DNA of 57,708 nt from an uncultured Oscillospiraceae bacterium (GTDB lineage Bacteria; Bacillota; Clostridia; Oscillospirales; Oscillospiraceae), in contig CAKTRJ010000013.1 in assembly GCA_934597345.1 (NCBI GenBank), forward strand, positions 1 to 57,708. The letters run 5' to 3'. The stretch's first letter is position 1. Every line of letters begins with the position of its first letter. The translations under genes and the position numbers were made by a program. The notes below the pieces were generated by a model that was given only the letters and a program-made list of their open reading frames with translations, searched no databases and had not been told where the DNA came from. This document shows, piece after piece, positions 16,021 to 42,171 of this stretch.

Positions 16021-16028
16021 AAAAGGCT

Positions 16029-24998: not shown

Positions 24999-25028
24999 TT
25001 GACTTTCTCCTTCCGGCCGGGCCATAAT
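24999..25028 (+). promoter_or_regulatory. Promoter of the transketolase operon
   Basis: TTGACT (24999-25004), 18-bp spacer, CATAAT (25023-25028). The expected transcription start near 25035 rules out the in-frame ATG at 25027 and supports a translation start at 25081. Confidence 0.7.
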
Positions 25029-25080
25029 GGGAACAAGCAGTGGCCCGGACACGCAAACCATGAATGGAGATGTAACAGCT

Positions 25081-25875
25081 ATGGAGTATGAATTTCAAGA
25101 CAGGATACGGCTTCTGGTCAAGAAGATGATCATGAACAGCGGCTGCGGCCATGCCGGCGGCAGTCTGTCCATGGCGGAAATACTGGCAAGCCTTTTTGAG
25201 GACGTCATGGTCTATGACCCGAAGGACCCCCAGTGGGCCGGGCGCGACCGCTTCATCCTTTCAAAGGGACATTCCGCCCTGGGCCTTTATGCCGCGCTGC
25301 ATCTGGCCGGTTATTTTGACGAGGAGGTGCTTTACACCTTCGCCAAGCCGGATGGCCGGCTGATGAACCATCCGGACCGGACGGTGCTGCCCGGTGTGGA
25401 ACTGAGCACCGGCTCGCTGGGCCACGGACTGGCCCTGGCGGACGGCATCGCGCTGGCCGGGCAGCAGAAGGGCGAGACCTATTTCACCTATTGCCTGACG
25501 GGCGACGCGGAGATCCAGGAGGGCAGCGTCTGGGAGGCGGCCATGTTCGCCTCCGCCTACGGTCTGAAGCGGTTGGTGGCCATCGTAGACCGCAATCACA
25601 TCGGCAACGACGGCCCCATTGACCCTTTCGTCACGCCGGAACCGCTGTCGGAAAAGTGGGCGGCCTTCGGCTTCAAGACCGTCCACATCGACGGAAATGA
25701 CCGTTCGGCGGTCACGGCGGCGCTGCGCCGTTTCCGCCAAGAAGCTGACGGCCCTTACGCCATCGTGGCGGAGACCATAAAGGGAAAGGGTCTCGTGGAC
25801 GGCATCGCCGGGACCGGAGCGGCCCATTACCTGAAGGGCACCGCCGATGAGATCGCCGCAAAGTTTGCGCTGTAA
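25081..25875 (+). CDS. Transketolase, N-terminal (TPP-binding) subunit
   Basis: 264 aa, half-size subunit. It carries the TPP-pyrophosphate-binding half: SKGHSALGLYA, STGSLGHGLALADG and GDAEIQEGSVWEA...DRNHIGNDG. It transfers two-carbon ketol units between sugar phosphates or analogues together with the next gene product. Stand-alone pairs like this are frequent in gut Firmicutes and are used in both the pentose-phosphate pathway and specialised sugar or sulfosugar pathways. GGAG lies 11 nt before the ATG. First gene of a four-gene operon. Confidence 0.92.
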   Translation: MEYEFQDRIRLLVKKMIMNSGCGHAGGSLSMAEILASLFEDVMVYDPKDPQWAGRDRFILSKGHSALGLYAALHLAGYFDEEVLYTFAKPDGRLMNHPDRTVLPGVELSTGSLGHGLALADGIALAGQQKGETYFTYCLTGDAEIQEGSVWEAAMFASAYGLKRLVAIVDRNHIGNDGPIDPFVTPEPLSEKWAAFGFKTVHIDGNDRSAVTAALRRFRQEADGPYAIVAETIKGKGLVDGIAGTGAAHYLKGTADEIAAKFAL

Positions 25876-25887
25876 GGGGGAAGAAAA

Positions 25888-26829
25888 ATGAGCGAAAAGA
25901 TCTCTATGATGGCGGCGTTTGCCGAAAGACTTTACGCGCGGATGGCCGAGGATCCCCGGATCCGGGTCATGACGGCGGATCTGGTTGGCTCCTGCGCGCT
26001 GAAAAAAATCGAGGCGGATCACAGGGACCAGTTTATCAACGTGGGCATTGCGGAGCAGAACATGGTCAGCATCGCGGCGGGACTGGCGCACGAGGGAATG
26101 ATCCCGTTTACCTACACCTTTGCCGCGTTTCACGCCATGCGCTCCTGTGAGCAGGTGCGCACGGATGTATTCTATAACGAGCAGAATGTCAAGGTGATCG
26201 GTACCCACTGCGGCGTCAGTACCGGGCAGGCAGGCTCGACGCATTTCGCGCTGGAGGACATCGCCATTCTGCGCGGCATGCCCAAAAGCGTGGTGCTGGT
26301 GCCGTCTGACCCCGTATCCGCCGCTGAGACCGCGGACGTGGCATACCAGTGCCCCCACGGCGTCTATGTCCGGCTGGACAGAAACCCGGCTCCCGCGCTC
26401 TATCAGGCGGGCGAACGGTTTTCCATCGGCAAGGCGCATGTGCTGAAGGACGGCGCGGACATCGTCCTGTTTGCCGCCGGGACGGCGGTACACGCTGCTT
26501 TGGAGGCCGCCGCCATGATCGAAAGCCGGGAAAACCTTTCCGTGGCGGTGGTGGACCTGTACAGCATCAAGCCCCTTGACGTAGCGTGCGTGACCCGCTA
26601 CGCCGGTAAATGCCGCCACGCCTTTACCATCGAGGAACACAACGTGTGCGGCGGCGTGTTCGGCGCCGTGGCCGAGTGTATCGTCCGGACGTCCCGCGGC
26701 TGCACGCTGCATCCCATCGCCATAGAGGAAACCTATCCCCACGGAAACACCGTGGAGCGGGCGCGGGAATTGCTGGGACTGGACGCAGACGGGATCACGG
26801 AGACCGTTTGCCGGGCCATCAAAGAATAG
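25888..26829 (+). CDS. Transketolase, C-terminal (pyrimidine-binding) subunit
   Basis: 313 aa, partner of the preceding gene, 12 nt away. The PYR domain has FINVGIAEQNMVSIAAGLA (catalytic Glu in IAEQN) and THCGVSTGQAGSTHFALEDIA; the transketolase C-terminal domain follows (about 190-313). Together the two genes equal one conventional transketolase of about 580 residues, slightly shorter than E. coli TktA (663), which is normal for split enzymes. Confidence 0.92.
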   Translation: MSEKISMMAAFAERLYARMAEDPRIRVMTADLVGSCALKKIEADHRDQFINVGIAEQNMVSIAAGLAHEGMIPFTYTFAAFHAMRSCEQVRTDVFYNEQNVKVIGTHCGVSTGQAGSTHFALEDIAILRGMPKSVVLVPSDPVSAAETADVAYQCPHGVYVRLDRNPAPALYQAGERFSIGKAHVLKDGADIVLFAAGTAVHAALEAAAMIESRENLSVAVVDLYSIKPLDVACVTRYAGKCRHAFTIEEHNVCGGVFGAVAECIVRTSRGCTLHPIAIEETYPHGNTVERARELLGLDADGITETVCRAIKE

Positions 26830-26838
26830 GAGGAAACT

Positions 26839-27627
26839 ATGGATACTTACGATCTTAACGCCTTTACCATGCAGTGCTTCTCCCTGAAGGGGAAAAACGC
26901 TGTAATCACCGGCGCCAACAACGGCGTCGGCATGGGGTACGCCTACGCACTGATGAAAGCCGGCGCCAATGTGCTGATCCCCTGCCTGAATGACAACAAC
27001 TGGGACACGCTGCGCACGGTGGCCGCGGACTGCGGCGTGCAGGTGGAATTCCTGAAGGGCGACCTGTGCGACGACGCCTTCCGCACCCAGGTGGTCAGCG
27101 CGGCGCAGGAGCGCTTCGGCAGCATTGATATCCTTATCAACAACGCAGGCTTCATCATCCGGAAGCCGTTGCTGGAATGCAGCGACCGGGACTGGACCAG
27201 CGTGATGAACGTCAACTGCGACGCGCTGTACTTTCTCTCCCGCCGGGTGGCGGAGGTGATGGTGCGGCAGCAGCACGGAAAGATCATCAACATCTGCTCC
27301 ATGATCTCCTTCCGGGGCGGCATCAACAACATCGGGTATGCCGCCAGCAAGCACGCAGTGGCCGGTATCACCAAGAACTTTGCCAACGAGCTGGGGAAAT
27401 ACCACATTCAGGTCAACGGCATCGCGCCGGGCTACATCGCCGCCGGAAACTCCGAGGAGATCATCCATGACGAGGCCATCTACAATGATTTCCTCTCCCG
27501 CATCCCCGCCGGCCGCTGGGGCACGTCCGCCGACCTGCAGGGCCTTGCGGTATTCCTCAGCAGCGAAGCCTCCGACTACATCAACGGCGCCATTATCCCG
27601 GTGGACGGCGGCTATCTGTGCAGGTGA
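26839..27627 (+). CDS. SDR oxidoreductase (gluconate 5-dehydrogenase/KduD-like)
   Basis: 262-aa short-chain dehydrogenase. NAD(P) site TGANNGVGMG, NNAG at about 97, catalytic Ser in CSMIS and YAASK, and the C-terminal GAIIPVDGGYLCR. This layout is typical of sugar-acid ketoreductases of the IdnO/KduD type, acting on a hydroxyl next to a carboxylate or ketose. The neighbouring transketolase suggests it feeds a ketose to that enzyme (inference). 9 nt after the transketolase subunit. Confidence 0.85.
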   Translation: MDTYDLNAFTMQCFSLKGKNAVITGANNGVGMGYAYALMKAGANVLIPCLNDNNWDTLRTVAADCGVQVEFLKGDLCDDAFRTQVVSAAQERFGSIDILINNAGFIIRKPLLECSDRDWTSVMNVNCDALYFLSRRVAEVMVRQQHGKIINICSMISFRGGINNIGYAASKHAVAGITKNFANELGKYHIQVNGIAPGYIAAGNSEEIIHDEAIYNDFLSRIPAGRWGTSADLQGLAVFLSSEASDYINGAIIPVDGGYLCR

Positions 27628-27632
27628 CGCGT

Positions 27633-28655
27633 ATGAAAGCAGTGTATGTCAACGAAGCCCACCGGCTGGAGATCGTTGATCTTCCCAAGCCGGAGATCAC
27701 TCGCGACGACGACGTGCTGATCCGGATCACCTCCGCGGGGATCTGCAGCTCTGATCTGGAGATCGCCGCCGGCGTCCACCCCTTTGCCCGCTATCCCATG
27801 ATCATCGGACACGAATTCGGCGGGATCGTGGAGCAGGTCGGGGCAGGCGTCACCCATGTGGCCGCAGGCGACAGGGTAACTGTGGACCCCGTGACCAGCT
27901 GCGGCAAATGCCATTCCTGCCTGCGGGGAAAGCCCAATGTCTGCCTGCATCTGGCGACCATGGGCGTACACCGTGACGGCGGCTTTGCCGAATACGCGGT
28001 GGTCCCGGAAAAGAACGTCTATGTATTCCGTAAGTCGGGGATCGACCCTTCCATTCTGGGCCTGGCCGAACCGTACAGCATCGGCGTGCAGACCAACTTC
28101 CGTGGCGGCACCCAAAAGGGCGACCGGGTTATGGTGCTGGGTGCGGGGCCGATCGGCATCTGCGCCATGCAGGAGGCCCGCTGGCGCGGGGCCGAGGTGG
28201 CCATCACCGATCTATTGGACAGCCGTTTACAACGGGCTGCAGCGATGGGCGCGGATCACACCATCAACGCCGGAGAGACCGATCCCGCCGCATGGTGCCA
28301 AGCACAGTACGGCGGCGACGGCGCGGACGTGGTGATCAACACCGTGGGAAATGCTGCCTCGCTGGCGCAGTCCATCCGGCTGGCAGCCTTCGGCGGAACG
28401 ATCGTCAGCGTCAGTCTGGATAAGCGGCCCGCCCCCATCTCCCAGGCGGAGATCACCAAAAAGGAGCTGACGATCGCAGGCTCCCGGCTGAACCTGCATC
28501 ATTTCGGCCATGTGGTGGAGGCCATCGAGTCCGGCGCTTTCCAGCCGGAGCTGCTGCGCAGCCACACCTTCCACTTCACGGAGATCCGAAAGGCGCTGGC
28601 ACTGATCCGCGAGCATCCGGAACTGGTGTCAAAGGTGGCGCTTTCTTTCGACTGA
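27633..28655 (+). CDS. Zinc-dependent alcohol dehydrogenase (sorbitol/threonine dehydrogenase-like)
   Basis: 340-aa MDR-superfamily enzyme. Structural-zinc cysteines CGKCHSCLRGKPNVC, catalytic-zinc Cys in GICSSDLEI, HEFGG, and a Rossmann motif VLGAGPIGICAMQEA. It oxidises a secondary alcohol of a polyol, sugar acid or butanediol with NAD. ATG 27633 follows AGGTGACGC; the GTG at 27618 is inside the preceding gene. Last gene of the transketolase operon. No strong terminator follows before the next promoter region. Confidence 0.86.
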   Translation: MKAVYVNEAHRLEIVDLPKPEITRDDDVLIRITSAGICSSDLEIAAGVHPFARYPMIIGHEFGGIVEQVGAGVTHVAAGDRVTVDPVTSCGKCHSCLRGKPNVCLHLATMGVHRDGGFAEYAVVPEKNVYVFRKSGIDPSILGLAEPYSIGVQTNFRGGTQKGDRVMVLGAGPIGICAMQEARWRGAEVAITDLLDSRLQRAAAMGADHTINAGETDPAAWCQAQYGGDGADVVINTVGNAASLAQSIRLAAFGGTIVSVSLDKRPAPISQAEITKKELTIAGSRLNLHHFGHVVEAIESGAFQPELLRSHTFHFTEIRKALALIREHPELVSKVALSFD

Positions 28656-28702
28656 AAGCGCCGCAAAGCCTGCAAAAACCGTATCATACAATTTTGGAAG
28701 CA

Positions 28703-28712
28703 CAAACGTTTG
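28703..28712. promoter_or_regulatory. Candidate LacI-family operator CAAACGTTTG
   Basis: 10-bp palindrome with the central CG typical of LacI/CcpA-family operators, in the 228-bp gap before acoA and about 90 bp upstream of the promoter -35. It might be read by the LacI regulator at 41167-42171. Confidence 0.45.
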
Positions 28713-28777
28713 CTTTTACCTCAAATCCGCGCAAACCCTTTTAATATCAGTGGTTAATTTGTACAAACGAAAATTGC

Positions 28778-28798
28778 AATTACGCAACTTGCGTAATT
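28778..28798. promoter_or_regulatory. 21-bp perfect palindrome upstream of acoA promoter
   Basis: Arms AATTACGCAA and TTGCGTAATT around one central base, ending 5 bp before the -35. The position fits an activator or repressor site; I see no copy elsewhere in the window. Confidence 0.55.
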
Positions 28799-28803
28799 CC
28801 CGC

Positions 28804-28832
28804 TTGCTGTTTGCGGAAGCGTTTTTCATAAT
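28804..28832 (+). promoter_or_regulatory. Probable promoter of the E1-ABC-LarA-E2-E3 operon
   Basis: TTGCTG (28804-28809), 17-bp spacer, CATAAT (28827-28832), about 50 bp before acoA, immediately after the 21-bp palindrome. Confidence 0.55.
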
Positions 28833-28883
28833 GATATCAGACCCCGGAGCGGATGCTGCGAGAAGCAAAGGAGTGCGTAACAT

Positions 28884-29861
28884 ATGAATCAATTCCCGAC
28901 AAACGAAAAAGCCCTCGGCATGTACTTGAAGATGTATGAGATCCGCAAGTACGAGGAGCGCCTTTACTACCTGTTTCTGGAGGGCGAGATGCCCGGCACA
29001 CTGCACCAGAGCCACGGTGAGGAGGCCTGCGCGGTGGGCATGCTGTATGACCTGAGACACGATGACTGGATGGCCAGCACACACCGGCCCGCCGGTCACG
29101 ACCTGGCCAAGGGCGTATCCCTTCGTTCCATGATGTGCGAAATGTTCGGCAAGGCCGAGGGCTGCTGCGGCGGCAAGGGCGGCGCCATGCATACCGGCGA
29201 CATCAACGTGGGCGCCCTGACGGCCAACGCCATTGTCGGCGGCAACCTGCCCATTGCGGCAGGCGTGGGCCTAGCCTTCAAGATGCAGAAGAAGGACAAC
29301 GTGGTGGTCTGCTTCTTCGGTGACGGCGCCTCCAATGAAGGCTCCTATCACGAGACCATGAACGCGGTGGGTCTGTGGAAGCTGCCGGTGATCTATGTGT
29401 GTGAGAACAATCTCTATTCGGCAAACACCTCCATCTCCCTGACCTGCTGCCAGGAAAACGTGGCGGCGGACCGCGCCGCCATATACGGCATCCCCAGCGA
29501 GGTGGTGGACGGCAACGACGTGGTGGCCGTCAACGAAGCGGCGGAGCGCGCCATTGAGCGGGCCAGAAGCGGCGGCGGCGCCACCATTCTGGAGCTGAAA
29601 ACCTACCGTCACGGCGGCCACGCCAGAAACGACGCCTGCGGCTATCGTCCCAAGGACGAGGAGGCCTACTGGTTCAACGAACGCGACCCGGTCAAGAACT
29701 TCCGCAAGGAGATCCTCAGCAGAGGTATCCTGACAGAAGAAGCGCTGGCAGAGCGGGAAGCGGCGGTCGAACAGGAAATTGAGGACGCTGTGGATTACGC
29801 CAAAGCAGCGCCGCTGCCCCGACCGGAAGAAGCATTACAGAACGTCTATCGGGAGGGTTGA
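28884..29861 (+). CDS. acoA: Thiamine-dependent dehydrogenase E1 alpha subunit (acetoin/2-oxoacid type)
   Basis: 325 aa. With AcoB it forms the alpha2beta2 E1 enzyme that decarboxylates or cleaves a 2-oxoacid or acetoin and passes the acyl group to lipoyl-E2. TPP motif GDGASNEGSYHETMNAV at residue about 146 through ENN, plus HRPAGHDLAKG and GGKGGAMH, are characteristic of the PDH/acetoin E1 alpha family. AGCAAAGGAG precedes the ATG. The substrate is not determined by the sequence; acetoin, pyruvate or a larger 2-oxoacid are all possible. Confidence 0.9.
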   Translation: MNQFPTNEKALGMYLKMYEIRKYEERLYYLFLEGEMPGTLHQSHGEEACAVGMLYDLRHDDWMASTHRPAGHDLAKGVSLRSMMCEMFGKAEGCCGGKGGAMHTGDINVGALTANAIVGGNLPIAAGVGLAFKMQKKDNVVVCFFGDGASNEGSYHETMNAVGLWKLPVIYVCENNLYSANTSISLTCCQENVAADRAAIYGIPSEVVDGNDVVAVNEAAERAIERARSGGGATILELKTYRHGGHARNDACGYRPKDEEAYWFNERDPVKNFRKEILSRGILTEEALAEREAAVEQEIEDAVDYAKAAPLPRPEEALQNVYREG

Positions 29862-29865
29862 GACA

Positions 29866-30933
29866 ATGGCAATGATGAATGTATCTCAGGCGCTGAAAAA
29901 CGCTATCGAGCTGGAGATGCGCCGCGATCCCAGCGTATACTGCATCGGTGAGGACGAGGATATCCCCAACGGTATGGGCGGCGTGTTCCTGGTCACCAAG
30001 GGGCTGGGCGACGAATTCGGTGCCAACGTCCGCGTGGCGCATCAGAACGGCTTTGAAATGAAAGGCCAGGACATTGCGGAGGACCGGGTGATCAACACGC
30101 CGATCTCCGAGATCCTGCTGGGCGGCGTGTGCGTTGGTTCCGCCATGGCCGGTATGCGGCCGGTGGCAGACCTGCAATACGGTGACTTCCTGTTCTGCAT
30201 GATGGATCAGCTGGTAAATCAGGCCGCGAAAATGCACTATATGTCCAACGGCCAGCTCAGCGTCCCCATGGTCATGCGGGCGCCGGTGGGCGCTGTCCGC
30301 CGCGGCGCGCAGCACGCGCAGAGCCTGGAGAGCTATTTCACCCACGTCCCCGGCCTGAAGGTGATCTGCCCCTCCACGGCCTATGACGCAAAGGGTATGA
30401 TGATCCAGGCTATCCGAGACAACAACCCCGTGCTGGTCTTTGAGCACAAGCTGCTGTACGGCGACAAGCGCGAGGCGGGAAATGTCTCCGCCGAGGGCGA
30501 CGTTCCCCAGGAGTCCTACACCATCCCCTTCGGAAAGGCCGCCATCCGCCGGGAGGGCAAGGATATCACCATTGTGGCCAACCTGCTGATGTGGTACAAG
30601 GCCATGGAGGCCGCGGAGATCCTGGAAAAGGAGGGCATCAGCTGCGAGATCATCGACCCCCGGTCGCTGCATCCTTTCGATTACGACACGGTGATCGAGT
30701 CCATCAAAAAAACAGGCAAGCTGATGATCGTACACGAGGACACCTATACCAACGGCTGGGGCGCTCAGCTGGCGGCCTACATCGCGGAAAACGCGATCCT
30801 GCATCTGGACGCGCCGGTGGTCCGTGTGGCGACGCCCGACTGCCCGATCCCCTTCGCTCCCGTGCTGGAAGAGTACCTGATCCCGTCGGTGGAGCGCATC
30901 ACCGAGGAGGCCAGAAAGCTGGCCAGGCTGTAA
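29866..30933 (+). CDS. acoB: Thiamine-dependent dehydrogenase E1 beta subunit
   Basis: 355 aa, partner of acoA (4-nt gap). YCIGEDEDIPNGMGG, DRVINTPISE and HAQSLESYFTHVPGLKVICPS are E1-beta signatures, with the conserved Glu of the TPP activation site in the first third. E2 and E3 follow only after an ABC transporter and a LarA-like gene, an uncommon split of the complex. Start 29866 is used; GGGAGGG lies just before it. Confidence 0.9.
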   Translation: MAMMNVSQALKNAIELEMRRDPSVYCIGEDEDIPNGMGGVFLVTKGLGDEFGANVRVAHQNGFEMKGQDIAEDRVINTPISEILLGGVCVGSAMAGMRPVADLQYGDFLFCMMDQLVNQAAKMHYMSNGQLSVPMVMRAPVGAVRRGAQHAQSLESYFTHVPGLKVICPSTAYDAKGMMIQAIRDNNPVLVFEHKLLYGDKREAGNVSAEGDVPQESYTIPFGKAAIRREGKDITIVANLLMWYKAMEAAEILEKEGISCEIIDPRSLHPFDYDTVIESIKKTGKLMIVHEDTYTNGWGAQLAAYIAENAILHLDAPVVRVATPDCPIPFAPVLEEYLIPSVERITEEARKLARL

Positions 30934-30945
30934 TATCACTACCGT

Positions 30946-30999: not shown

Positions 31000-32085
31000 A
31001 TGAAAAAGGCAAAAAGAGTTTTCGCACTGATCCTGGCACTGGCGATGGCGCTGAGTCTGCTGGCCGGCTGCGGCGGCAGCGGCGGCAGCGATGACACCGG
31101 CAGCGAGAAAAAGACCATTCGCGTCGGTACGCTGCCCTTTACCGGCAGTGTCCCTGTGGCATATGCTATCGAAAAGGGTTACTTTGAAGAAGCAGGTCTG
31201 GATGTGGAGCAGTACGAGTTCGCTACCGGCGCCCCGATGAACGAGGCCTTTGCCGCCGGTCAGCTGGACATCGCTGTGATCGGTCTGGCCGGGGTCATTT
31301 CCATGTCCACCGGCAATGCCGTGTGCATCTATGAGACCAACACCGCCTCTGGAGGCAACGGCATCTTCGTTCGTCCCGACAGCCCTCTGGCCGCGGTTTC
31401 CGGCCAGTGCGAGGGCTATCCCAACCTGCTGGGCAGCACCGATCTGCTGCGCGGCATCACCATCATCGGCAACCTGGGCACCTCCTCCCAGCTGCAGACC
31501 ATCCTGTATCTGGAGCATTTTGGTCTGACCCAGGACGACATCAACTTCGTGAACATGGACACCGGCGCGGACTATCAGGCCTTCAAGAGCGGCGAAGGTG
31601 ATGCTGTCTCCCTGATGACCCCCTATACCTACAACGCCGCCGATGACGGCTATGTGCAGGTCTGCTCCTTCGAGGACGCCGCAGACTATGTGATTCCCGA
31701 CACCATGCTGGCCACCAAGTCCTTCATGGAGAGCGACCGCGACACCGCCAAGCTGTTCCTGGAGGTCTATCTGAAGGCCGTGGATGAGCTGAACGCCGAC
31801 GACGACCTGATGTTCAACACCTCCAAGGAGTACTTTGCCGCCTGCGGCCGCGAGTACGGCGACGACTATGTGAAGCGGGATTTGGAGACCCGTTTCCTCA
31901 TCGATGCGGACTATATGTCCGGCGAAAATTACTGCTTCGGCAGCGGCATGTGGGAAGTTGCCAAGCTGTTCACCGAATCCGGCAAGATCGAGGAGAGCAA
32001 CCTCCACAACGTGATCGACTGCCTGGACACCTCTCTGATCCAGGAGATCACCGGCCTGCAGATTGCCGTTGAGACCGGCGACTGA
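31000..32085 (+). CDS. ABC importer substrate-binding lipoprotein (NitT/TauT-type)
   Basis: 361 aa. Signal peptide and lipobox LAGC (Cys24), then a Ser/Gly linker and an NMT1/SsuA-like domain (IRVGTLPFTGSVPVAYAIEKGYFEEAGLDVE). This family binds small anions or thiamine-, nitrate-, sulfonate- or aromatic-type ligands; which one cannot be read here. AAGGAAGG precedes the ATG at 31000, and the ATG upstream at 30967 has no such signal. It is followed by a hairpin and its cognate permeases. Confidence 0.85.
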   Translation: MKKAKRVFALILALAMALSLLAGCGGSGGSDDTGSEKKTIRVGTLPFTGSVPVAYAIEKGYFEEAGLDVEQYEFATGAPMNEAFAAGQLDIAVIGLAGVISMSTGNAVCIYETNTASGGNGIFVRPDSPLAAVSGQCEGYPNLLGSTDLLRGITIIGNLGTSSQLQTILYLEHFGLTQDDINFVNMDTGADYQAFKSGEGDAVSLMTPYTYNAADDGYVQVCSFEDAADYVIPDTMLATKSFMESDRDTAKLFLEVYLKAVDELNADDDLMFNTSKEYFAACGREYGDDYVKRDLETRFLIDADYMSGENYCFGSGMWEVAKLFTESGKIEESNLHNVIDCLDTSLIQEITGLQIAVETGD

Positions 32086-34499: not shown

Positions 34500-34507
34500 G
34501 GTGCCCT

Positions 34508-35251
34508 ATGGAAGAACAGGTAAAGGTAAAAGTAGACCACCTTACGAAAAAATTCGACCAGCTGCTGGTGCTGGATGACATCTCCTTCAACGTGATGAAG
34601 GGGGAGTTCCTGTGCATCGTCGGCCCCACCGGCTGCGGCAAGACCACGTTCCTCAACAGCCTGACCGGCCTGTATCAGGCCACCTCCGGCAGCATCCTCA
34701 TCAACGGCGAGCCTGTGGACCTGAAGAAGCACAATGTGTCCTACATCTTCCAGGAGTACTCCACCATGCCGTGGCTGAACGTGGAGGAAAACGTGGCCTA
34801 CGGTCTGAAGCTGAAGCACACGCCCAAGGATATCATGAAGGAGAAAACCAAGCGGATGCTGGCGCTGGTGGGCCTGACGGCCTATCGGGACTATTACCCC
34901 GGCGAGCTGTCGGCCAGTATGCTCCAGCGGGTGGTGATCGCCCGCGCCTTCGCCACAGAGCCGGAGCTTCTGCTGATGGACGAGCCTTACGGCCAGCTGG
35001 ACATCGAGCTGCGCTTCCATCTGGAGGATGAGCTGATCCGCCTGTGGAAGGAGACCGGCACAACGGTCATCTTCATCACCCACAACATCGAGGAAGCCGT
35101 TTATCTGGGCCAGCGGATCATGGTGCTGACCAACAAGCCCACCAAGGTAAAGGAAAACGTGATGTGCGAGATGCCCTGGCCCCGGGATATTGCCGCGCCG
35201 GAGTTCATTGCGCTGCGCAACCGCGTCACCGATCTGATCAAGTGGTGGTAA
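34508..35251 (+). CDS. ABC importer ATPase 2 (signature motif degenerate)
   Basis: 247 aa. Walker A GPTGCGKTT (39-47), Q-loop YIFQEYSTMPW, Walker B LLLMDEP and H-loop FITHN (His192) are intact, but the signature reads LSASM (134-138) in place of LSGGQ/M. The defects are opposite to those of ATPase 1, so one composite site would be complete (Walker/H-loop of this protein with LSGGM of ATPase 1) and the other doubly altered. The start at 34508 uses GAGGTG; an ATG at 34496 overlaps the previous stop and lacks a ribosome binding site. Confidence 0.9.
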   Translation: MEEQVKVKVDHLTKKFDQLLVLDDISFNVMKGEFLCIVGPTGCGKTTFLNSLTGLYQATSGSILINGEPVDLKKHNVSYIFQEYSTMPWLNVEENVAYGLKLKHTPKDIMKEKTKRMLALVGLTAYRDYYPGELSASMLQRVVIARAFATEPELLLMDEPYGQLDIELRFHLEDELIRLWKETGTTVIFITHNIEEAVYLGQRIMVLTNKPTKVKENVMCEMPWPRDIAAPEFIALRNRVTDLIKWW

Positions 35252-35273: not shown

Positions 35274-36734
35274 ATGAAATTGGATTTTGAATATGGAAAC
35301 GGCGTGATGACGGCACAGCTGCCGGACAGCACAAAGGTATTTGTGCCCGGCCAGACGGTGTCGGATCCGCCCCACATCCCGGAGGAGCAGCTGGTGGAGG
35401 CCACCAGAAACTCCATCCGGAACCCCATCGGCATGCCGCCGCTGTGCCAGCTGGCACACGCCGGCAGCACGGTGGTGATCGTGATCCCCGACATCGTGAA
35501 GGGCGGCTGCCAGCCGACGGCCCACCGGAAGATCGCCATCCGCGTGATCCTGGATGAGCTTTATGCCGCCGGTGTGGAGAAGAAGGACATCCTTCTTCTG
35601 TTCTCCAACGGGCTGCACCCCCGCACCAGCGTGCCGGAAATGCGGAAGATCCTGGGTGAAGAACTTTTCAACGAGTTCTACCACACCCATCAGATCGACA
35701 GCCACGATTCCGAAAACTACGATGACCTGGTGGATCTGGGCTATACGACCCACGGCGACCACGTCATCATGAACAAGCGCGTCTTTGCCTGCGACCTGCC
35801 GATCCTGATCGGCCACACCCAGGGCAATCCCTACGGCGGCTATTCCGGCGGCTACAAGCACTGCGCCACCGGCATCACCCACTGGCGCTGCATCGCCGCC
35901 CACCATGTGCCGGAGGTCATGCACCGCAAGGATTTCGTCCCGGTATCCACCCACTCCATGATGCGGAACAAGTTCGACGAGATCGGCCGCTATATGGAGG
36001 AAAAGATGGGGCACCCCTTCTTCTGCTGCGACGCGGTGCTGGATACCTATTCCCGGCAGATCGCCATCTATTCCGGCTGCGCCGAAAAGATGCAGCCCAT
36101 CGCCTGGGAGGTAGCGGATAAGCGGACATACGTCCCCTTTGCGGAGGAAAAGTTCGACGTCATGGTGTTCGGCATGCCTATCGATTTCCACTACGGCAAC
36201 GGCATGGGCACCAACCCCATCCAGATGATGCAGGCGCTCAGCGCGCAGGTCATCCGCCACAAGCGCGTGATGAAGGAAAACTGCGTCATTATTTGCAGCA
36301 GTATCTGCGACGGCTATTTCCACGATGAGAGATGGCCCTATGCACGGGAGCTTTTTGACCTGTTCGGCCACGATTATCACCAGACCCTGCCGGACATGGC
36401 CAGTCTGGGCGAGTATTTTGCCACCAAGGAAGAATACATCCGAAAGTACCGCTTTGCCGGCGCTTTCCATCCCTATCACGGGTTCTCCATGATGTCCTGC
36501 GCCCACATTGCGGAGATGAACACCTCCGCGATCTACATCGTCGGCGCCAGAGAGCCGGGCATCGCCCGGGCCATGGGGCTCAAGACCCGGGCCACCTTCG
36601 AGGAGGCGCTGGCCGACGCGATGAAGAAGTATGTCGGCCCCTCCCCCAACATTCTGGCGCTGCCGCAGACCTTTAAGCTGGGCGCGGTGCATCTGTGCAT
36701 GAAGGACGGCGCGGCCGGACAGGGACACTGCTGA
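35274..36734 (+). CDS. LarA-family nickel-pincer racemase homologue, altered active site
   Basis: 486 aa, DUF2088/LarA fold. LarA of Lactobacillus racemises lactate with a nickel-pincer nucleotide bound to Lys184, using His108, His174 and His200. Here the matching sites appear to be H115 (NGLHPRTS), N185 (GNPYGGYSGGYK), K195 and H211: cofactor Lys and two His kept, catalytic His174 replaced by Asn. The substrate-side D-x-x-R becomes DIVK (D73, K76). It is therefore probably an epimerase or related enzyme for a different hydroxy acid. Genes for the cofactor (larB, larC, larE) are not in the window. It sits between the importer and E2, suggesting action on the imported compound. About 60 residues longer than LarA. 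Confidence 0.8.
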   Translation: MKLDFEYGNGVMTAQLPDSTKVFVPGQTVSDPPHIPEEQLVEATRNSIRNPIGMPPLCQLAHAGSTVVIVIPDIVKGGCQPTAHRKIAIRVILDELYAAGVEKKDILLLFSNGLHPRTSVPEMRKILGEELFNEFYHTHQIDSHDSENYDDLVDLGYTTHGDHVIMNKRVFACDLPILIGHTQGNPYGGYSGGYKHCATGITHWRCIAAHHVPEVMHRKDFVPVSTHSMMRNKFDEIGRYMEEKMGHPFFCCDAVLDTYSRQIAIYSGCAEKMQPIAWEVADKRTYVPFAEEKFDVMVFGMPIDFHYGNGMGTNPIQMMQALSAQVIRHKRVMKENCVIICSSICDGYFHDERWPYARELFDLFGHDYHQTLPDMASLGEYFATKEEYIRKYRFAGAFHPYHGFSMMSCAHIAEMNTSAIYIVGAREPGIARAMGLKTRATFEEALADAMKKYVGPSPNILALPQTFKLGAVHLCMKDGAAGQGHC

Positions 36735-36752
36735 CAGAGGGGAGACGATAAC

Positions 36753-37967
36753 ATGATTCAGGAGATCAAAATGCCGGCAGCCGGTCAGACCACCAACAAG
36801 GCGGTCGTCTATCAGATCTGCGTCAAGGTAGGCGACACGGTCAAGCGGGGCGACGTGCTGCTGGAAGCGGAGACAGATAAAGCCGTACTGCCGGTAGAGA
36901 GCTATGCCAACGGCACCGTACTGGCGATCCTGGTGAGCGAAGGCGATCAGGTAACGGCAGGCAGCGTTCTGATGGCGGTCGGCAAGCCCGGCGAAGCATA
37001 TGCCCCGGCAGGCGAGACCGCAGACGCGGCGCCCGCTGCCAGCCCGGCACCCGCCGCTCCCATCGGGGAGCAGGAGGAGTATCTGCCCATCATCAAGGGA
37101 CAGAGCGTAACGCCCGCCGCACCGATAGAGACCGGACGTCAGGACTATCCCGCCATGCCCAACGCCAAGCTGCTGGCCAGAGAGCGCGGCATCGACATCC
37201 GCCAGGTAACGGCCGCCAACGGACAGTTCGTCACCCGGCAGGACGTGGAAAAGTATGTACCGGCCGCGGTATCCTCCGCGGCGGAAGCGGAATACGAGGT
37301 ACTGCCCATGAACCGGATGCGGCAGATCATCGGCAAGCGGATGAAGGAATCCCTCAGTGAGATCCCCTGCTGGCAGTGCACCACCGTCATCAAGATGGAT
37401 GCCTGCATGGCGCTGCGGGATACCTATAAGGAGAAGAAGGGTGTCAAGCTGTCCTATAACGATATGATGGCCAAGGCCATCGCCGTAGCGTCCCGGAAAT
37501 TCCCGCTGGTCAATGCCCGCTGCGAAAACGGCGAAGTCCGCGTATACCGGCATACGAACGTAGGACTGGCTGTGGCGCTGGAGGGTGCGCTGGTGGTGCC
37601 TGTGGTCCGGGATATCGACCGCAAGGGACTGGCGGAGATCGCCGCCGACTATAAGGCGCAGATCGCAAAGGCGCGGGACAACAAGCTGCTGCCCGAGGAT
37701 ATGGGCTGCGGCAGCATCACCATCTCCAATCTGGGCATGTATGATGTGGAGCAGTTCATCGCCATCGACAATCCGCCGGAGAGCTGCATTCTGGCGGTGG
37801 GCTCCATCAAGATAAAGCCGGAGTGGGACGGCGAGAAGTTTGTCCCCGCCAACATGATGGCAGTGACAGGCTCTTTCGACCATCGTATCATTGACGGCGC
37901 TTACGGTGCGCAGTTCCTGCAGGAGCTGAAAACGCTGATGGAAGACCCCGCTCTGATGCTGTATTAA
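36753..37967 (+). CDS. acoC: Dihydrolipoamide acyltransferase E2
   Basis: 404 aa. One N-terminal lipoyl domain with the lipoyl-Lys motif ETDKA (K43), an E3/E1-binding domain at about 125-165 (MPNAKLLARERGIDI; NGQFVTRQDVEKYV) and a C-terminal CAT domain ending SFDHRIIDG (H377, D381). It transfers the acyl group from lipoyl to CoA. Ala/Pro-rich linkers join the domains. It is separated from E1 by the importer and LarA-like genes but has the usual E2-E3 order with the next gene. Confidence 0.92.
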   Translation: MIQEIKMPAAGQTTNKAVVYQICVKVGDTVKRGDVLLEAETDKAVLPVESYANGTVLAILVSEGDQVTAGSVLMAVGKPGEAYAPAGETADAAPAASPAPAAPIGEQEEYLPIIKGQSVTPAAPIETGRQDYPAMPNAKLLARERGIDIRQVTAANGQFVTRQDVEKYVPAAVSSAAEAEYEVLPMNRMRQIIGKRMKESLSEIPCWQCTTVIKMDACMALRDTYKEKKGVKLSYNDMMAKAIAVASRKFPLVNARCENGEVRVYRHTNVGLAVALEGALVVPVVRDIDRKGLAEIAADYKAQIAKARDNKLLPEDMGCGSITISNLGMYDVEQFIAIDNPPESCILAVGSIKIKPEWDGEKFVPANMMAVTGSFDHRIIDGAYGAQFLQELKTLMEDPALMLY

Positions 37968-37982
37968 CGGAGGTGACGGAGC

Positions 37983-39353
37983 ATGGAACAGTATGATGTA
38001 TTAGTGATCGGCGGCGGCCCCGGCGGTTATTCGCTGGGTATCGCGGCCGCAAAAAAGGGACTTAGCGTCGCCTTGTTTGAGAAAGAGCACCTGGGCGGCA
38101 CCTGCCTGAACGTGGGCTGTATCCCCACCAAGTATCTGGTGGACAAAGCCAACGCCATGGAGAAGGTCCGGGCGCTGGTGAAAAAGGACATTTTCCGTGA
38201 CGCCGGGAGCTTTAGCTTCAAGCAGATCCAGAAGGGCAAAAGCGAGGTCACCGGCAAACTGGTGAACGGCGTGAAATTCCTGCTGAAAAAGGTGGGCGCG
38301 ACGGTCATCGAAGGCGAAGCGGTGCTGAAAAAGGACCGTGTGGTGGTCTGCAACGGTACGGAATATCAGGGAAAGCATGTGGTGATCGCCACCGGCAGCG
38401 TGCCCATGATGATCCCGGTGCCGGGGCATGAATACTGCATCGACTCCACCGGCGCGCTGAACCTGCCCTCCCTGCCCCGCAGTATGGTGGTGATGGGCGG
38501 CGGCGTAATCGGTCTGGAGCTGGCCTGCGCTTTTGCCGCTTACGGCACCGAGGTGACGGTGGTGGAGATGATGCCGGAGCTGATGCCCCGCGAGCAGAAG
38601 GAAGCGGTGCGTATTCTGGTCAATGACCTGAAAAAGCAGGGCATTTCTTTAAAGACCGGCGCAAAAATGCTGCGCATTGAGAAGAACGGCGGCCTGCTGC
38701 GGGCCGTTTACGAGGTGGATGGCGGCGAGCAATCCACCGACTGCGAGCAGGTGCTGATGGCGGCGGGCCGCAAGACGAATCTTACCGGTATCGACGCCAA
38801 AGCCCTGGGCCTGCGGCTGGATGAGAAGAAGTGCATCGTGGTGGACGATCACCAGCGCACGAACCTGCCCGGTGTCTATGCCATCGGTGACGTGGTGGGC
38901 GGCTATCAGCTGGCCCATGCCGCCTATGCCGAGGGTGAGTCGGCGCTGGCGGATATTCTGGGTGAGGACAAGCCCTACGGCACGATGCCGGTGCCGGTCT
39001 GCACCTACACGATCCCCTGCTTTGCCTCTGTGGGGCTGACCACAGAGGGTGCAAAGGCCGCGGGCTATGAACCGGTGCTGGGCAGCTTTGACTACGGCGC
39101 CAACGGCATGGCGCTGGCGGAGGGTGCCTCCGGCGCGGTATTCGTTGTGGCGGACAAGGCGACGACCCGGACGCTGGGCATCACCATCGTGGGCGAAAAT
39201 TCCTCGGAAATGATCGCCATGGCCGCCTCGGCGGTGGCCGACGGGCTGACGACAGAGCAGTGGAAAAAGATGATCGTGGCCCATCCGTCGCTGTGCGAAA
39301 TGGTCCGCGAGGCGGCGCTGGATGCCTTCGGTGTATCGGTACATAAGGGATAA
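37983..39353 (+). CDS. lpdA: Dihydrolipoyl dehydrogenase E3
   Basis: 456 aa FAD flavoprotein that reoxidises dihydrolipoyl-E2 with NAD. FAD motif GGGPGGYSLGIAAAKKG, redox disulfide GGTCLNVGCIPTK (C41-C46), a second dinucleotide fold (MGGGVIGLE), and C-terminal HPSLCEM with the conserved His-Glu pair. 15 nt after E2. A dedicated E3 points to a self-contained complex. Confidence 0.94.
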   Translation: MEQYDVLVIGGGPGGYSLGIAAAKKGLSVALFEKEHLGGTCLNVGCIPTKYLVDKANAMEKVRALVKKDIFRDAGSFSFKQIQKGKSEVTGKLVNGVKFLLKKVGATVIEGEAVLKKDRVVVCNGTEYQGKHVVIATGSVPMMIPVPGHEYCIDSTGALNLPSLPRSMVVMGGGVIGLELACAFAAYGTEVTVVEMMPELMPREQKEAVRILVNDLKKQGISLKTGAKMLRIEKNGGLLRAVYEVDGGEQSTDCEQVLMAAGRKTNLTGIDAKALGLRLDEKKCIVVDDHQRTNLPGVYAIGDVVGGYQLAHAAYAEGESALADILGEDKPYGTMPVPVCTYTIPCFASVGLTTEGAKAAGYEPVLGSFDYGANGMALAEGASGAVFVVADKATTRTLGITIVGENSSEMIAMAASAVADGLTTEQWKKMIVAHPSLCEMVREAALDAFGVSVHKG

Positions 39354-39366
39354 GGAGGAACAGAGC

Positions 39367-40116
39367 ATGCTGCAAGATATGCTGAAGGACAAGGTGGCAC
39401 TGATCACCGGCGGCGGCCGGGGCATCGGTGAGGCCTGCGGCCGTATCCTGTCGGAATACGGCGCAAAGGTGATCCTGGCGGATCTGGACCTGAGTACAGC
39501 CCAGGCCGTGGCGGACAGTCTGACGGCGCAGGGCCGCCAGGCGGCGGCACTGGCGTTCAATGTGGCGGATTTCCCCCACATCAAAAGCAAGGTGGCCGAG
39601 GCACGGGATATCTTCGGCCGGATCGACATTCTGGTGAATGTGGCCGGTATCGCAGGGACCTGCTCCATCGAGGAGATCACCTTTGAAAGCTGGGACCGCA
39701 TGATGGACATCGACCTGAAGAGCATGTTCTTCGTGTCGCAGGCGGTGTTCGCCATCATGAAGGAACAGGGCTACGGAAAAATGGTCCACATGTCCTCCCT
39801 GGCCGGTCAGCGGGGCGGCCGCAGCGCCGACGCCTCCTATGCCATCGCCAAGGCCGGCGCTCTGAACCTGAGCATGGGCTTTGCTCTGGCGGGTGCAGAA
39901 TATCACATCACCTCCAACGCCGTCTGCCCCGGAAACATTCTGACACCCATGGGAAAGACCATGTCCTGGTCCCATGTGGACCCCAAGACCTATATCCCGC
40001 TGGGACGCTACGGCTGCGCGGAGGACATCGCCAAGGCGGTGCTGTTCTACGCCAGCGATCTGTCCGACTATGTGACGGGTGATTCCATGAAGGTCAACGG
40101 CGGTATTTACATGTAA
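39367..40116 (+). CDS. SDR oxidoreductase, second in the island
   Basis: 249 aa. TGGGRGIG cofactor loop, NVAG in place of NNAG, active-site Ser in MSSLAG and YAIAK. It resembles acetoin/butanediol and 3-oxoacyl reductases; the substrate may be the alcohol form of the E1 substrate (inference). AAGGAGG precedes the ATG at 39367. Last gene before a strong terminator. Confidence 0.83.
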   Translation: MLQDMLKDKVALITGGGRGIGEACGRILSEYGAKVILADLDLSTAQAVADSLTAQGRQAAALAFNVADFPHIKSKVAEARDIFGRIDILVNVAGIAGTCSIEEITFESWDRMMDIDLKSMFFVSQAVFAIMKEQGYGKMVHMSSLAGQRGGRSADASYAIAKAGALNLSMGFALAGAEYHITSNAVCPGNILTPMGKTMSWSHVDPKTYIPLGRYGCAEDIAKAVLFYASDLSDYVTGDSMKVNGGIYM

Positions 40117-40160
40117 GCCTGATAGCAGGCAGACGACCGTCTCTGACAGTATACGCTGAT

Positions 40161-40202
40161 CCGGCAGCAGCAAGCCGTTGCTGCTGCCGGGTTTTCTTTT
40201 TT
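40161..40202 (+). terminator. Strong intrinsic terminator of the E1-to-SDR operon
   Basis: 13-bp perfect stem CCGGCAGCAGCAA/TTGCTGCTGCCGG, 4-nt loop, then GTTTTCTTTTTT. A second hairpin with T-run (40245-40285) lies just upstream of the TauE-like gene. Confidence 0.9.
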
Positions 40203-40301
40203 GCTGCCTTTTTACCGAAAAGCCGCCCTTTCATGGCGGCAATGGGGCGCGTCTGCGCGCATATGCGCGGCGTGCGCCCGTTTTTACAGGAAGGGGATCT
40301 T

Positions 40302-41084
40302 ATGGGTATTCTTATATTTCTGGTCTGTCTCACGGCTTCCACGATCGGCGGGATATGCGGCATCGGCGGAGGTGTCATCATCAAGCCGGTGCTGGACGCA
40401 CTGGGCGTTATGTCGGTATCCGCCTTGCAGTTTCTGTCCGGTCTGACGGTGCTGGGCATGTCTATGGTGTCGGTACTGCGCAGCCGGAAGTCCCGCCTGC
40501 TGGAGCTGCGCACCAGTAGCGCCCTCGCTGTCGGTGCGGTGCTAGGCGGCATCGCCGGAAGCACACTGTTTCAGCTGTTGAAGCAGGCGGTGAGCAGCGA
40601 CCGTACCGTCGGCTCGACACAGGCGGTCCTGCTGGGCCTTATGACGCTGTTGACGCTGGTATACAGCGCGTATCTCCGTCGCCGCATTCCCTCGCACCAT
40701 GTGACGGGTCTGGCAGCCTGCGTCGTGATCGGGCTGCTGATGGGTGCGCTGTCGGCCTTTCTGGGGATCGGCGGCGGCCCCATCAACCTGGCCGTTCTGT
40801 ACTACTTCTTCTCCATGGACACGAAAAAAGCGTCGGCAAACTCCCTGTATATCATTCTCTGCTCCCAAAGCGCCAGCTTCCTCTCCACCCTTATCAGCGG
40901 AACGATACCGGAATTCCCCTGGATATTCCTGCTGCTGACGGTTCCGGCAGGCGTATTGGGCGGGATCATCGGCTCCTGTGTCAACAAAAAGATCTCCACG
41001 GCCATTGTGGACAGGCTCTTTTACGGCCTGCTGCTGGTGATCACAGGGATCTGCGTATACAACGCCTGCGCTTTTTCCCGGTAA
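40302..41084 (+). CDS. TauE/SafE-family membrane exporter
   Basis: 260 aa, seven or eight hydrophobic helices, with the repeated family motif GICGIGGGVI and FLGIGGGPIN at the starts of the two homologous halves. Members export sulfite, sulfoacetate or other anions, and some act as importers. ATG 40302 has AGGAAGGGG before it; the open frame upstream (from 40233) runs over the hairpin 40245-40285. It is separated from the preceding operon by the terminator. Confidence 0.82.
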   Translation: MGILIFLVCLTASTIGGICGIGGGVIIKPVLDALGVMSVSALQFLSGLTVLGMSMVSVLRSRKSRLLELRTSSALAVGAVLGGIAGSTLFQLLKQAVSSDRTVGSTQAVLLGLMTLLTLVYSAYLRRRIPSHHVTGLAACVVIGLLMGALSAFLGIGGGPINLAVLYYFFSMDTKKASANSLYIILCSQSASFLSTLISGTIPEFPWIFLLLTVPAGVLGGIIGSCVNKKISTAIVDRLFYGLLLVITGICVYNACAFSR

Positions 41085-41088
41085 GGGG

Positions 41089-41118
41089 TTGCGTTCCGGC
41101 GGTGGAAGCCTGTAAAAT
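41089..41118 (+). promoter_or_regulatory. Possible promoter of the LacI regulator gene
   Basis: TTGCGT (41089-41094), 18-bp spacer, TAAAAT (41113-41118), about 50 bp before the start. Weaker than the other promoters here. Confidence 0.4.
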
Positions 41119-41166
41119 AGAGAAAGCGGCACGCAGCAGAAGGCGGCGAAACGGAAGGAGCGAGCC

Positions 41167-42171
41167 ATGAGACTGAAGGACATTGCGGAAAAGGTAGGGG
41201 TCTCCACCTCTACGGTTTCCCGGGTGCTGAACGACCGGGAAACCAAGGCGGCCTCCCGGAAGGTAAAGGAAAAGGTATGGCAGGCCGTGCGGGAGGCGGG
41301 CTACACCCCCGACGAGGCCGCCCGGGAGCTGCGAGGCAAACGGCAGGTCGAGAGGGAAAAGCGCTACATTGCCTGCGTTTACGCACGGGTGACAAATCAC
41401 CGGGTGGACTCCTTCTTCTCGCAGCTGGCCGCGGCCATTGAGTACGAGCTTTTCAAAAACGGCTATGTGATGAAATACTCCATCTATGCCGGAGAGATGG
41501 ATGTGGAGACCTTTTCCAATATCCTGGCAGGCACCGAAGTGGACGGCATCATCGTGATGGGCCGCTTCTTTGACGAGCAGCTGCGCGCCACCGTGGAAAA
41601 GATGCCCAATGTGGTGTACGTTTCCCTCAGCGGCACTGAATCCGTCAACCACGACGTTGTTTTCAGCGACGCATATAAGGCGGCGCGCAGCGTCATGGGT
41701 GAGTTTTTCCGTCTGGGACACCGGCAGATCGCCTATGTAGGGGAAAAGCGCCGCGAAATGCGGTACGCCGGATACCGCGACGCCATGCAGGAGCAGGGCC
41801 TCAGGGAGCTCTCCGTGGACGCCGAGCAGACGATGGACGGCGGCTATACCGGTATGGAGACCCTGCTCTGCGCCGGAGACCCCTTTACCGCTGTATTCTG
41901 CGCCAATGACGAGGCCGCCATGGGCGCCATAAAGGCGCTGCGCGGTCACGGGAAGGAGGTCCCCCGCGACGTATCTGTGATCAGCGTGGACGACATTGAT
42001 GTGGCCAGCTATTTTTCCCCGATGCTCACCACCGTGCACATTCCCATCAATGAGCTGGGGCGGCAGGCGGCCCGCGTCATGGTCGACCGGATCAGCAACG
42101 CGCGAAAGATCGCGCTGCGGCTTGAGCTGCCCAGTTCCCTTTCGCGCCGGGACAGCAGCCGGGAAAAGTGA
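41167..42171 (+). CDS. LacI-family transcriptional regulator
   Basis: 334 aa. HTH KDIAEKVGVSTSTVSRVLN at residues 4-22, hinge helix, then a sugar-binding-type effector domain (VDGIIVMGRFFDEQL; SVISVDDIDVASYFSPMLTTVHIPINELG). Effector unknown. It follows the TauE-like gene and is the likely regulator of the preceding operon; CAAACGTTTG at 28703-28712 is a candidate target. Confidence 0.92.
   Translation: MRLKDIAEKVGVSTSTVSRVLNDRETKAASRKVKEKVWQAVREAGYTPDEAARELRGKRQVEREKRYIACVYARVTNHRVDSFFSQLAAAIEYELFKNGYVMKYSIYAGEMDVETFSNILAGTEVDGIIVMGRFFDEQLRATVEKMPNVVYVSLSGTESVNHDVVFSDAYKAARSVMGEFFRLGHRQIAYVGEKRREMRYAGYRDAMQEQGLRELSVDAEQTMDGGYTGMETLLCAGDPFTAVFCANDEAAMGAIKALRGHGKEVPRDVSVISVDDIDVASYFSPMLTTVHIPINELGRQAARVMVDRISNARKIALRLELPSSLSRRDSSREK

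Follow-up and report, generated by a model that had tools for sequence, protein, structure and literature searches.

What compound is taken up and degraded by the gene island described here? The island lies at positions 25027–42171 of a 57,708-nt stretch of DNA from an uncultured Oscillospiraceae bacterium (the window, meaning the whole stretch analysed), on the plus strand, between a divergent hybrid regulator and a LacI regulator. Its first operon encodes, in this order, the N and C halves of a split transketolase, a short-chain dehydrogenase (SDR1) and a Zn-dependent dehydrogenase. The second encodes the E1-alpha and E1-beta subunits of a dehydrogenase complex, a binding lipoprotein, two permeases and two ATPases of an importer, a LarA-like protein, the E2 and E3 subunits, a second short-chain dehydrogenase (SDR2) and a TauE-family permease. 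All the named genes were confirmed as intact reading frames at or near the positions first assigned to them, in agreement with an earlier reading of this DNA (the original prediction) that had proposed two operons between two regulators. The answer that we favour, at close to but short of an even chance, is that the island serves to import and catabolize a small molecule, a sugar or a polyol, whose terminal group is not phosphate but most likely a sulfate ester or, as second choice, a sulfonate. The island is one branch of a wider family of loci that apparently has not been described so far.

The LarA-like protein (35274–36734, plus strand) has as its closest solved relatives 9q3j (829 bits) and 9q2u/9q3k (752 bits), which represent the LarA_Bw/LarA_Sp subfamily, and its residues D73, K76, H115, N185, K195, H211, H306 and Y307 match those published for LarA_Sp in both identity and numbering. 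The cofactor-binding Lys (K195) and the Ni-binding His (H211) of LarA racemases and epimerases are present; of the catalytic His pair of the racemases, H115 is kept and the second is replaced by Asn185. An exact motif search finds this Asn in 78 of 82 clustered LarA proteins, and inspection finds it in three more; the last protein is a different paralogue, from locus L002. Moreover, matches to five curated NCBIfam LarA families all fell far under their cut-offs (178/740, 125/500, 119/460, 117.5/540 and 103.5/462 bits). The original prediction had a nickel-pincer racemase homologue here; the protein is not an ordinary homologue of that kind and should not be named a racemase. The accessible part of the report on LarA_Bw and LarA_Sp (PMC12611868) describes the same substitution of Asn for the second catalytic His, no detectable lactate racemisation by LarA_Sp, and a co-purified extra mass of 316.5 Da of undetermined nature; neighbouring genes pointed to carbohydrate metabolism, and the substrate of the subfamily was not established there. 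LarC, a cofactor-synthesis gene, scored over its cut-off in 14 of 18 LarA genomes, including that of locus L001. Locus L002 also encodes a second LarA paralogue beside the Asn type (15173–16426, minus strand), without the Asn motif, reading EFHYFAGYSGGAK and 27% identical to the window protein.

A single scan of species genomes found 196 relatives, of which the best 80 loci (73–91% identity) were used throughout. Their genes were delimited with a simple conservation-weighted open reading frame caller and grouped by single-linkage BLAST, which makes the counts approximate, and the family names rest on one scanned member per family. The hosts are mostly gut Clostridia by record titles, with some Spirochaetales. 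At least one core sugar enzyme or transketolase was present in 69 of the 80 loci. A triosephosphate isomerase (TIM)-like gene was found in 64, and directly 5' of larA in 58 of the 77 loci with sufficient sequence; phosphofructokinase (PFK)-like genes occurred in 46, fructose-bisphosphate aldolase (FBA)-like genes in 43, NagB-like in 34, NagA-like in 31, phosphoglucose isomerase (PGI)-like in 13, transketolase in 9, and AraD-like and ribulose-phosphate epimerase (RPE)-like genes in 8 each. TauE was found in 37 loci and an SsuA-type binding protein in 38. In 22 genomes searched, canonical TIM copies (301–331 bits) were always present, accompanied in 19 of them by a second, divergent TIM match (81–121 bits) that was missing in G001, G006 and G014.

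Several loci depart from this pattern. Downstream of LarA in L066 (10001–14812) come an APH-type kinase, an enolase scoring above its curated cut-off and TauE, and core sugar enzymes are absent; this is a different branch that may show what LarA makes. In both L066 (8616–9920) and L023, the gene immediately 5' of LarA(Asn) codes for a remote member of the Lar_N family (37 bits), and it is accompanied by transporter and aldolase-like genes. In L042, L049 and L059 (7063–11494 in the last), LarA comes after a beta-hydroxyacid dehydrogenase and a protein of the type I phosphodiesterase family, and no TIM-like gene was seen.

Sequence motifs suggest what sets these sugar enzymes apart. Motifs were counted in LarA-linked TIM-, NagB-, PGI-, AraD-, NagA- and RPE-like proteins of usable length, leaving out the PFK- and FBA-like ones, and were compared, for TIM, NagB and PGI, with canonical copies from the same genomes outside the LarA-linked families, the LarA-linked L129 copy being excluded from the PGI set; sequences were also aligned with solved enzymes. 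The motifs found to be lost or altered are ones that bind phosphate in the canonical enzymes. Among the TIM-like proteins, YGGS was found in 0 of 56 and YGGG in all 56, the catalytic motifs GH[SC]E and EP[VI]W were complete (56/56), and a new Arg in GLIALTRF was conserved in 53; canonical TIM had YGGS in 20/20 and GGAS in 17/20. A structure model of the TIM-like protein adopts the TIM fold. The NagB-like proteins lack TG[GS]TP (0/31, against 9/12 in canonical NagB), and all 31 have FRxWHR, with a new Arg, together with NMDEY and GHxAFNE. SK[ST]GTT, present in 7/7 canonical PGI, was replaced by AKNFET in the PGI-like proteins (0/12 and 12/12, respectively), and the AraD-like ones had neither KP[ST]G nor PSSD (0/8), with PSVD, HTHS and THAD in 8/8. 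Among NagA-like proteins, REP was kept in 1 of 29, with HxH[RE]P in 23 and DGxH in 28, and PGFGGQ remained in one of nine RPE-like proteins. The TIM-, NagB-, PGI- and AraD-like proteins have thus retained their catalytic motifs and lost the phosphate-binding ones, and the NagA-, RPE- and transketolase-like proteins are altered as well.

With phosphate-binding motifs lost and catalytic ones kept, the sugars handled by these enzymes probably bear a terminal group other than phosphate. Ordinary catabolism of N-acetylglucosamine (GlcNAc), hexoses or pentose phosphates by the neighbours was rejected, as their phosphate motifs have been lost and 22/22 genomes have a canonical TIM besides. The family is most simply explained by a second, parallel metabolism of sugars that bear a non-phosphate terminal group, converging on a C3 compound for the adjacent TIM-like protein and LarA. 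As to the nature of that group, sulfate is favoured and sulfonate comes next, a carboxylate or no group at all being possible. Locus L003 has a phosphotransferase system (PTS) EIIC gene with FBA-family and TIM-like genes and no PFK-like gene, as would be expected if its PTS phosphorylates C1.

The transketolase of the window shows a change at the corresponding site. Its N half (25027–25875, +; thiamine diphosphate domain, PF00456, 164.9 bits) is followed by a C half (25888–26829, +; PF02779/PF02780) that, among solved structures, matches the split transketolase 6yaj best and, by alignment, carries M-S-F-H-R in place of R-S-F-H-R. In the accessible part of PMC11659671, R-S-F-H-R is the phosphate-orienting motif, and R-A-F-D-R is found in the sulfofructose transketolase. 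R-S-F-H-R is absent from all 10 of the LarA-linked C halves: six have R-A-F-H-R, L037 has R-A-F-D-R, L032 R-P-F-D-R, L033 K-C-F-D-R and the window M-S-F-H-R, the F being taken from the adjoining alignment stretch. The operon is completed by SDR1 (26839–27627, +), a KduD-like protein under the NCBIfam cut-off (343 of 369 bits), and the Zn-dependent dehydrogenase (27618–28655, +; PF08240/PF00107). Locus L010 reads importer, SDR, two transketolase halves, alcohol dehydrogenase (ADH), RPE, AraD, TIM, LarA, TauE family and LacI; compared with it, the window is a transketolase branch in which E1/E2/E3 and a second SDR take the place of RPE, AraD and TIM. Split transketolase, SDR, ADH, a window-type importer, LarA, a TauE-family permease and LacI thus occur together in L010, and most of them in L002, L005, L008, L036, L037 and L040, which supports the original prediction both in its view of a catabolic island that has an importer of its own and in its hunch of a sulfo-sugar pathway. 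In L032 (2217–11440), RpiB-like, split transketolase, transaldolase-like, TauE-family, FBA, PFK, TIM-like and LarA genes form one run, suggestive of a version of the pathway that combines transketolase and transaldolase.

Transport genes and sulfatases bear on the choice of a sulfur group. The importer comprises the substrate-binding lipoprotein (31000–32085, +; NMT1-type), permease 1 (32189–32971, +; PF00528), permease 2 (32968–33747, +; an open reading frame whose orthologues are 92% identical in L001 and 34–41% in 11 further loci) and two ATPases (33726–34499 and 34496–35251, both + and PF00005). The model of the lipoprotein (pLDDT 82) had TauA or SsuA chains as its first seven PDB matches. 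Importers of this type, with two permeases and two ATPases, recur in L001, L002, L005, L007, L008, L010, L027, L036, L037, L040, L058 and L059, and seven of the 11 beyond L001 also carry a split transketolase. Besides the window TauE (40302–41084, +, frame open from 40233; PF01925, 114 bits), one of two additional families of TauE-family permeases is found in L010, L032, L037 and L059, in L037 and L059 by clustering alone.

Seven sulfatases, all scanned, with a C-x-P-x-R site were found in six of the 80 loci (two in L033, and one each in L047, L067, L069, L076 and L078), and a sulfatase maturase in three (L065, L067 and L069). At the genome level, 10 of 11 sulfatase matches in G008 lie on the LarA contig, between 44 and 106 kb; 3 of 4 in G018 share a contig with LarA, and G316 has a single one, roughly 2 kb away from its TIM-like gene; the 22 genomes were chosen partly for sulfatases already seen beside LarA, which makes these fractions a biased estimate. 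On contig C3 of G008, the 34–106 kb region holds 10 sulfatase matches and a maturase around the LarA locus (L033), in the manner of a sulfated-polysaccharide utilisation region. A DUF4838-type protein, from a GH20-like family, is encoded in seven loci (one member scanned). Together, the importer type, TauE, the sulfatases in 6/80 loci and the L037 motif favour sulfate or sulfonate.

The subunits of the dehydrogenase complex are E1-alpha of the 2-oxoacid/acetoin type (28884–29861, +; PF00676, 253 bits), E1-beta (29866–30933, +; PF02779/PF02780; NF006667, 333.5 bits, over the cut-off of 321), E2 with a lipoyl domain (36753–37967, +; PF00198, 241 bits; PF00364, 69 bits) and E3 (37983–39353, +; TIGR01350, 450 bits, over the cut-off of 409), followed by SDR2 (39364–40116, +, frame open from 39322; PF13561, 171 bits). 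In L001, 13 genes from E1-alpha to LacI are collinear with the window at 75–97% protein identity. This collinearity, and the presence of LarA, importer, TauE/TSUP, LacI and transketolase/SDR/ADH genes in distant loci such as L010, argue for recurrence beyond chance. A search of 300 family genomes with E1-beta gave six matches, one of 94% identity in G001, the genome of locus L001, and five of 48–53%; E1-alpha was found in 0 of 250 genomes at a strict limit, in a set without a positive control, and in 1 of 394 (again G001), these genome sets overlapping. The E1 region matched 182 plasmid records, all at 60–80% DNA identity and none spanning 80% of the query. The original prediction that everything from uptake to acyl-CoA formation is encoded here goes beyond what was found, the complete route being one that we infer. 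The link between E1/E2/E3 and LarA was seen in the window and L001 only, plus an E3-like gene beside TauE at a contig end in L037.

Whether the two operons stay linked in relatives had been set beforehand as a check. L001 lacks the transketolase operon, and the best match to the window transketolase in G001 (a draft of about 1.6 Mb) was 40% identical and no orthologue; but a fragment of SDR1 (about residues 119–195 of 262, with 84% DNA identity over 87 bp, followed by a partly conserved promoter region) lies just 5' of the E1 operon, so that the transketolase operon was probably linked there once and then lost. Argininosuccinate synthase lies beyond the fragment, and an rve-type transposase follows LacI. 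The right flank of the window island, with rubrerythrin (42269–42838, −) and an EF-G-family protein (43502–45553, −), is matched at 87% DNA identity by another contig of G001, and the 19.5 kb compared there contain no other window match; as this is apart from the L001 contig, the island sits elsewhere in G001.

On the favoured reading, that of a sugar or polyol with a terminal sulfur group, the TauA/SsuA-type importer would take up the compound, and the Zn-dependent dehydrogenase and SDR1 would oxidise it to a ketose. The split transketolase would move a two-carbon ketol unit onto an ordinary sugar phosphate, leaving a shortened sulfo-aldehyde, and LarA, via its nickel-pincer cofactor, would transform the sulfo-C3 product (either glyceraldehyde-3-X or the corresponding keto form) in a hydride reaction. 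As only one catalytic His is present, plain racemisation is less likely than an internal hydride shift or a reaction that also sets the sulfur group free. SDR2 and E1/E2/E3 would then convert the remaining keto compound to acyl-CoA and NADH, and TauE would export sulfate, sulfite or a sulfonated end product.

A broader proposal, possible in our view and held more tentatively, is that gut Clostridia and Spirochaetes run a parallel central metabolism for sugar sulfates. Paralogues of TIM, NagA, NagB, PGI, PFK, aldolase, AraD, RPE and transketolase, their phosphate sites changed, would lead to a sulfo-triose with the sulfate retained, and LarA(Asn) would resolve the triose by a non-racemising hydride reaction, probably freeing the sulfur group, the window being the branch that ends in an acyl-CoA-forming complex. 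Judging from the enzymes, the natural substrate would be GlcNAc-6-sulfate, from mucin, for the NagA/NagB branch, and glucose 6-sulfate for the PGI branch. As far as the accessible parts of the sources go, 6-sulfo-GlcNAc ranks among the major substitutions of mucin and can be released by certain GH20 enzymes (PMC10154618, PMC11659886), and glucose 6-sulfate occurs in sea water, its catabolism being called unknown in 2025 (PMC12911362). No sugar-sulfate catabolism route of this kind was found among the open-licence papers listed, including the accessible parts of PMC12911362, PMC10154618, PMC11659886, PMC11659671 and PMC12890257.

Several observations weigh against the favoured reading. The substrate, the LarA reaction and the acyl-CoA step are themselves inferred from sequence. 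In the NagB and NagA sites, some positive charges are lost and not relocated, so a neutral or smaller group fits too. A pyrimidine-precursor binder ranked eighth among the fold matches of the binding protein, with Thi5 after it, so the TauA/SsuA folds resemble thiamin-precursor binders as well, and a vitamin-precursor ligand, which the original prediction had named as a refuting outcome, is conceivable. Neither the window island nor locus L001 contains a sulfatase, and G001 has one sulfatase-family match (a 905-residue frame) and no maturase over the cut-off. The window transketolase, with its M-S-F-H-R, does not carry the sulfofructose-transketolase motif R-A-F-D-R; E1/E2/E3 accompany LarA in two related genomes only, that of the window and that of L001, a close relative; four of the 18 LarA genomes yielded no LarC (G006, G008, G015 and G018, for which no completeness is stated); and 11 of the 80 loci have neither a core sugar enzyme nor transketolase, several of these ending at contig ends.

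How do other explanations fare with the same evidence? LarA stands between the importer and E2/E3 in a single run, and known LarA enzymes use 2-hydroxyacids, according to the accessible parts of PMC7583248 and PMC11770544. The second operon might thus import a racemic 2-hydroxyacid, to be inverted by LarA, oxidised to the 2-oxoacid by SDR2 and converted to acyl-CoA by E1/E2/E3, with the transketolase operon as a separate sugar pathway. We consider this unlikely, though the least so of the alternatives, given the replacement of the second catalytic His by Asn185, the lack of lactate racemisation by LarA_Sp (PMC12611868, accessible part) and the sugar enzymes or transketolase that accompany LarA in 69/80 loci. 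A chance adjacency, either of the two operons or of E1/E2/E3 and LarA, serving different substrates, would also fit the confinement to the window and L001, and E1-alpha relatives of about 80% identity occur in many other contigs (context unseen), some named acetoin or pyruvate dehydrogenase. However, E1 and E2/E3 flank the importer and LarA and keep 81–94% identity in L001, the SDR1 remnant persists there, and transketolase, SDR, ADH, importer and LarA recur in L010 and others, which makes such a patchwork rather improbable.

The two remaining alternatives accept the altered phosphate sites and replace the sulfur group. With a carboxylate, uronic acids would pass through an Embden–Meyerhof–Parnas-like route to tartronate semialdehyde and hydroxypyruvate, interconverted or reduced by the TIM-like protein and LarA. 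LarA relatives do act on hydroxyacids, an enolase follows LarA in L066, and for the beta-hydroxyacid dehydrogenase of L059 the best-scoring models are those of threonate dehydrogenase and tartronate semialdehyde reductase; however, this enzyme scores nearly equally against sulfolactaldehyde reductase and stays under all cut-offs, NagA/NagB would require a rare aminouronic acid, and the sulfatases, TauE and SsuA-type importers speak for sulfur. This possibility seems to us about as improbable as the patchwork. Least probable of the four is the absence of any terminal group, in which 6-deoxy sugars would yield lactaldehyde and hydroxyacetone for the TIM-like protein and LarA. Several phosphate-binding positions have indeed turned non-polar (NagB Arg to an Ile/Gly stretch, AraD Ser to Val, the PGI loop to AKNFETLE), but the importer belongs to a class for small anions, and new Arg residues appear in FRxWHR (NagB, 31/31) and GLIALTRF (TIM, 53/56).

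As for the regulators, the left one (23667–24827, −) had been described as GntR/LacI-like; its LacI-type sensor scores above the Pfam cut-off (Peripla_BP_3, 91.6 bits), but its GntR-type DNA-binding domain is weak and stays below (22.3 of 27 bits). The right one (41167–42171, +) is of the LacI family (PF00356 and PF13377). Ahead of E1-alpha, a perfect 17-bp palindrome, TTACGCAACTTGCGTAA (28780–28796), is a probable operator; 0.04 such sites are expected at up to three mismatches, and its pattern is matched exactly in L001 (3510–3526). LacI and this palindrome probably control the second operon. General profile scans of the window island, made without references for SqvD and SqwI, the SQ and SEu isomerases of the sulfo-TK pathway, found no sugar isomerase family. 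Near the right end of the window, two tandem large serine recombinases (54413–55684 and 55695–57353, −), with Resolvase, Recombinase and zinc-ribbon domains, are a sign of a mobile element.

LarA(Asn) proteins have solved structures, and their recurrent sugar-enzyme neighbours with changed phosphate sites supply testable substrates. The fate of 6-sulfo-GlcNAc in gut bacteria (PMC10154618) and the breakdown of glucose 6-sulfate (PMC12911362), both as described in the accessible parts of those sources, would become testable, and the family could represent nickel-pincer chemistry beyond hydroxyacid inversion.

Among known systems, the sulfo-transketolase (sulfo-TK) pathway (SqwGH; PMC11659671 and PMC12890257, accessible parts) likewise has a split transketolase, there for a sugar bearing a sulfo head group, along with dedicated import and export, and its hosts too are Clostridia and Spirochaetes, all anaerobic; the window has a split transketolase, and that of L037 carries R-A-F-D-R. 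It differs in that RpiB-like genes occur only in L032 and L033 among LarA loci, and that the pathway as described in those parts has no role for LarA, NagA/NagB, a TIM-like protein or E1/E2/E3. A plain sulfoquinovose sulfo-TK pathway was rejected for the window, where R-A-F-D-R is absent. The complex resembles acetoin and pyruvate dehydrogenases in having E1-alpha, E1-beta, E2 with a lipoyl domain and E3, but its operon also includes the importer, LarA, an SDR and TauE, and curated pyruvate dehydrogenase cut-offs were missed (E1-alpha 315.7 of 393.9 bits, E2 298 of 445). TauA and SsuA are the best fold matches of the binding-protein model; unlike TauABC/SsuABC, however, the window importer has two permeases and two ATPases, its top matches are 15–18% identical, and its binding protein falls far under the curated TauA/SsuA cut-offs. 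LarA_Bw and LarA_Sp are full-length relatives with the same active-site residues and numbers, Asn185 and sugar-metabolism neighbours, although the accessible part of PMC12611868 calls these neighbours ordinary glycolytic enzymes, names no substrate and contains no phosphate-site loss, importer, TauE, sulfatases, or transketolase or E1/E2/E3 branches. Finally, compared with the GlcNAc-6-phosphate route, the LarA-linked NagA-, NagB- and TIM-like proteins have lost or altered their phosphate motifs, and a sugar kinase or PTS was not noticed in most NagA/NagB-branch loci (no count was made), but the largest branch has the same families in the same logical order, NagA-NagB-PFK-FBA-TIM.

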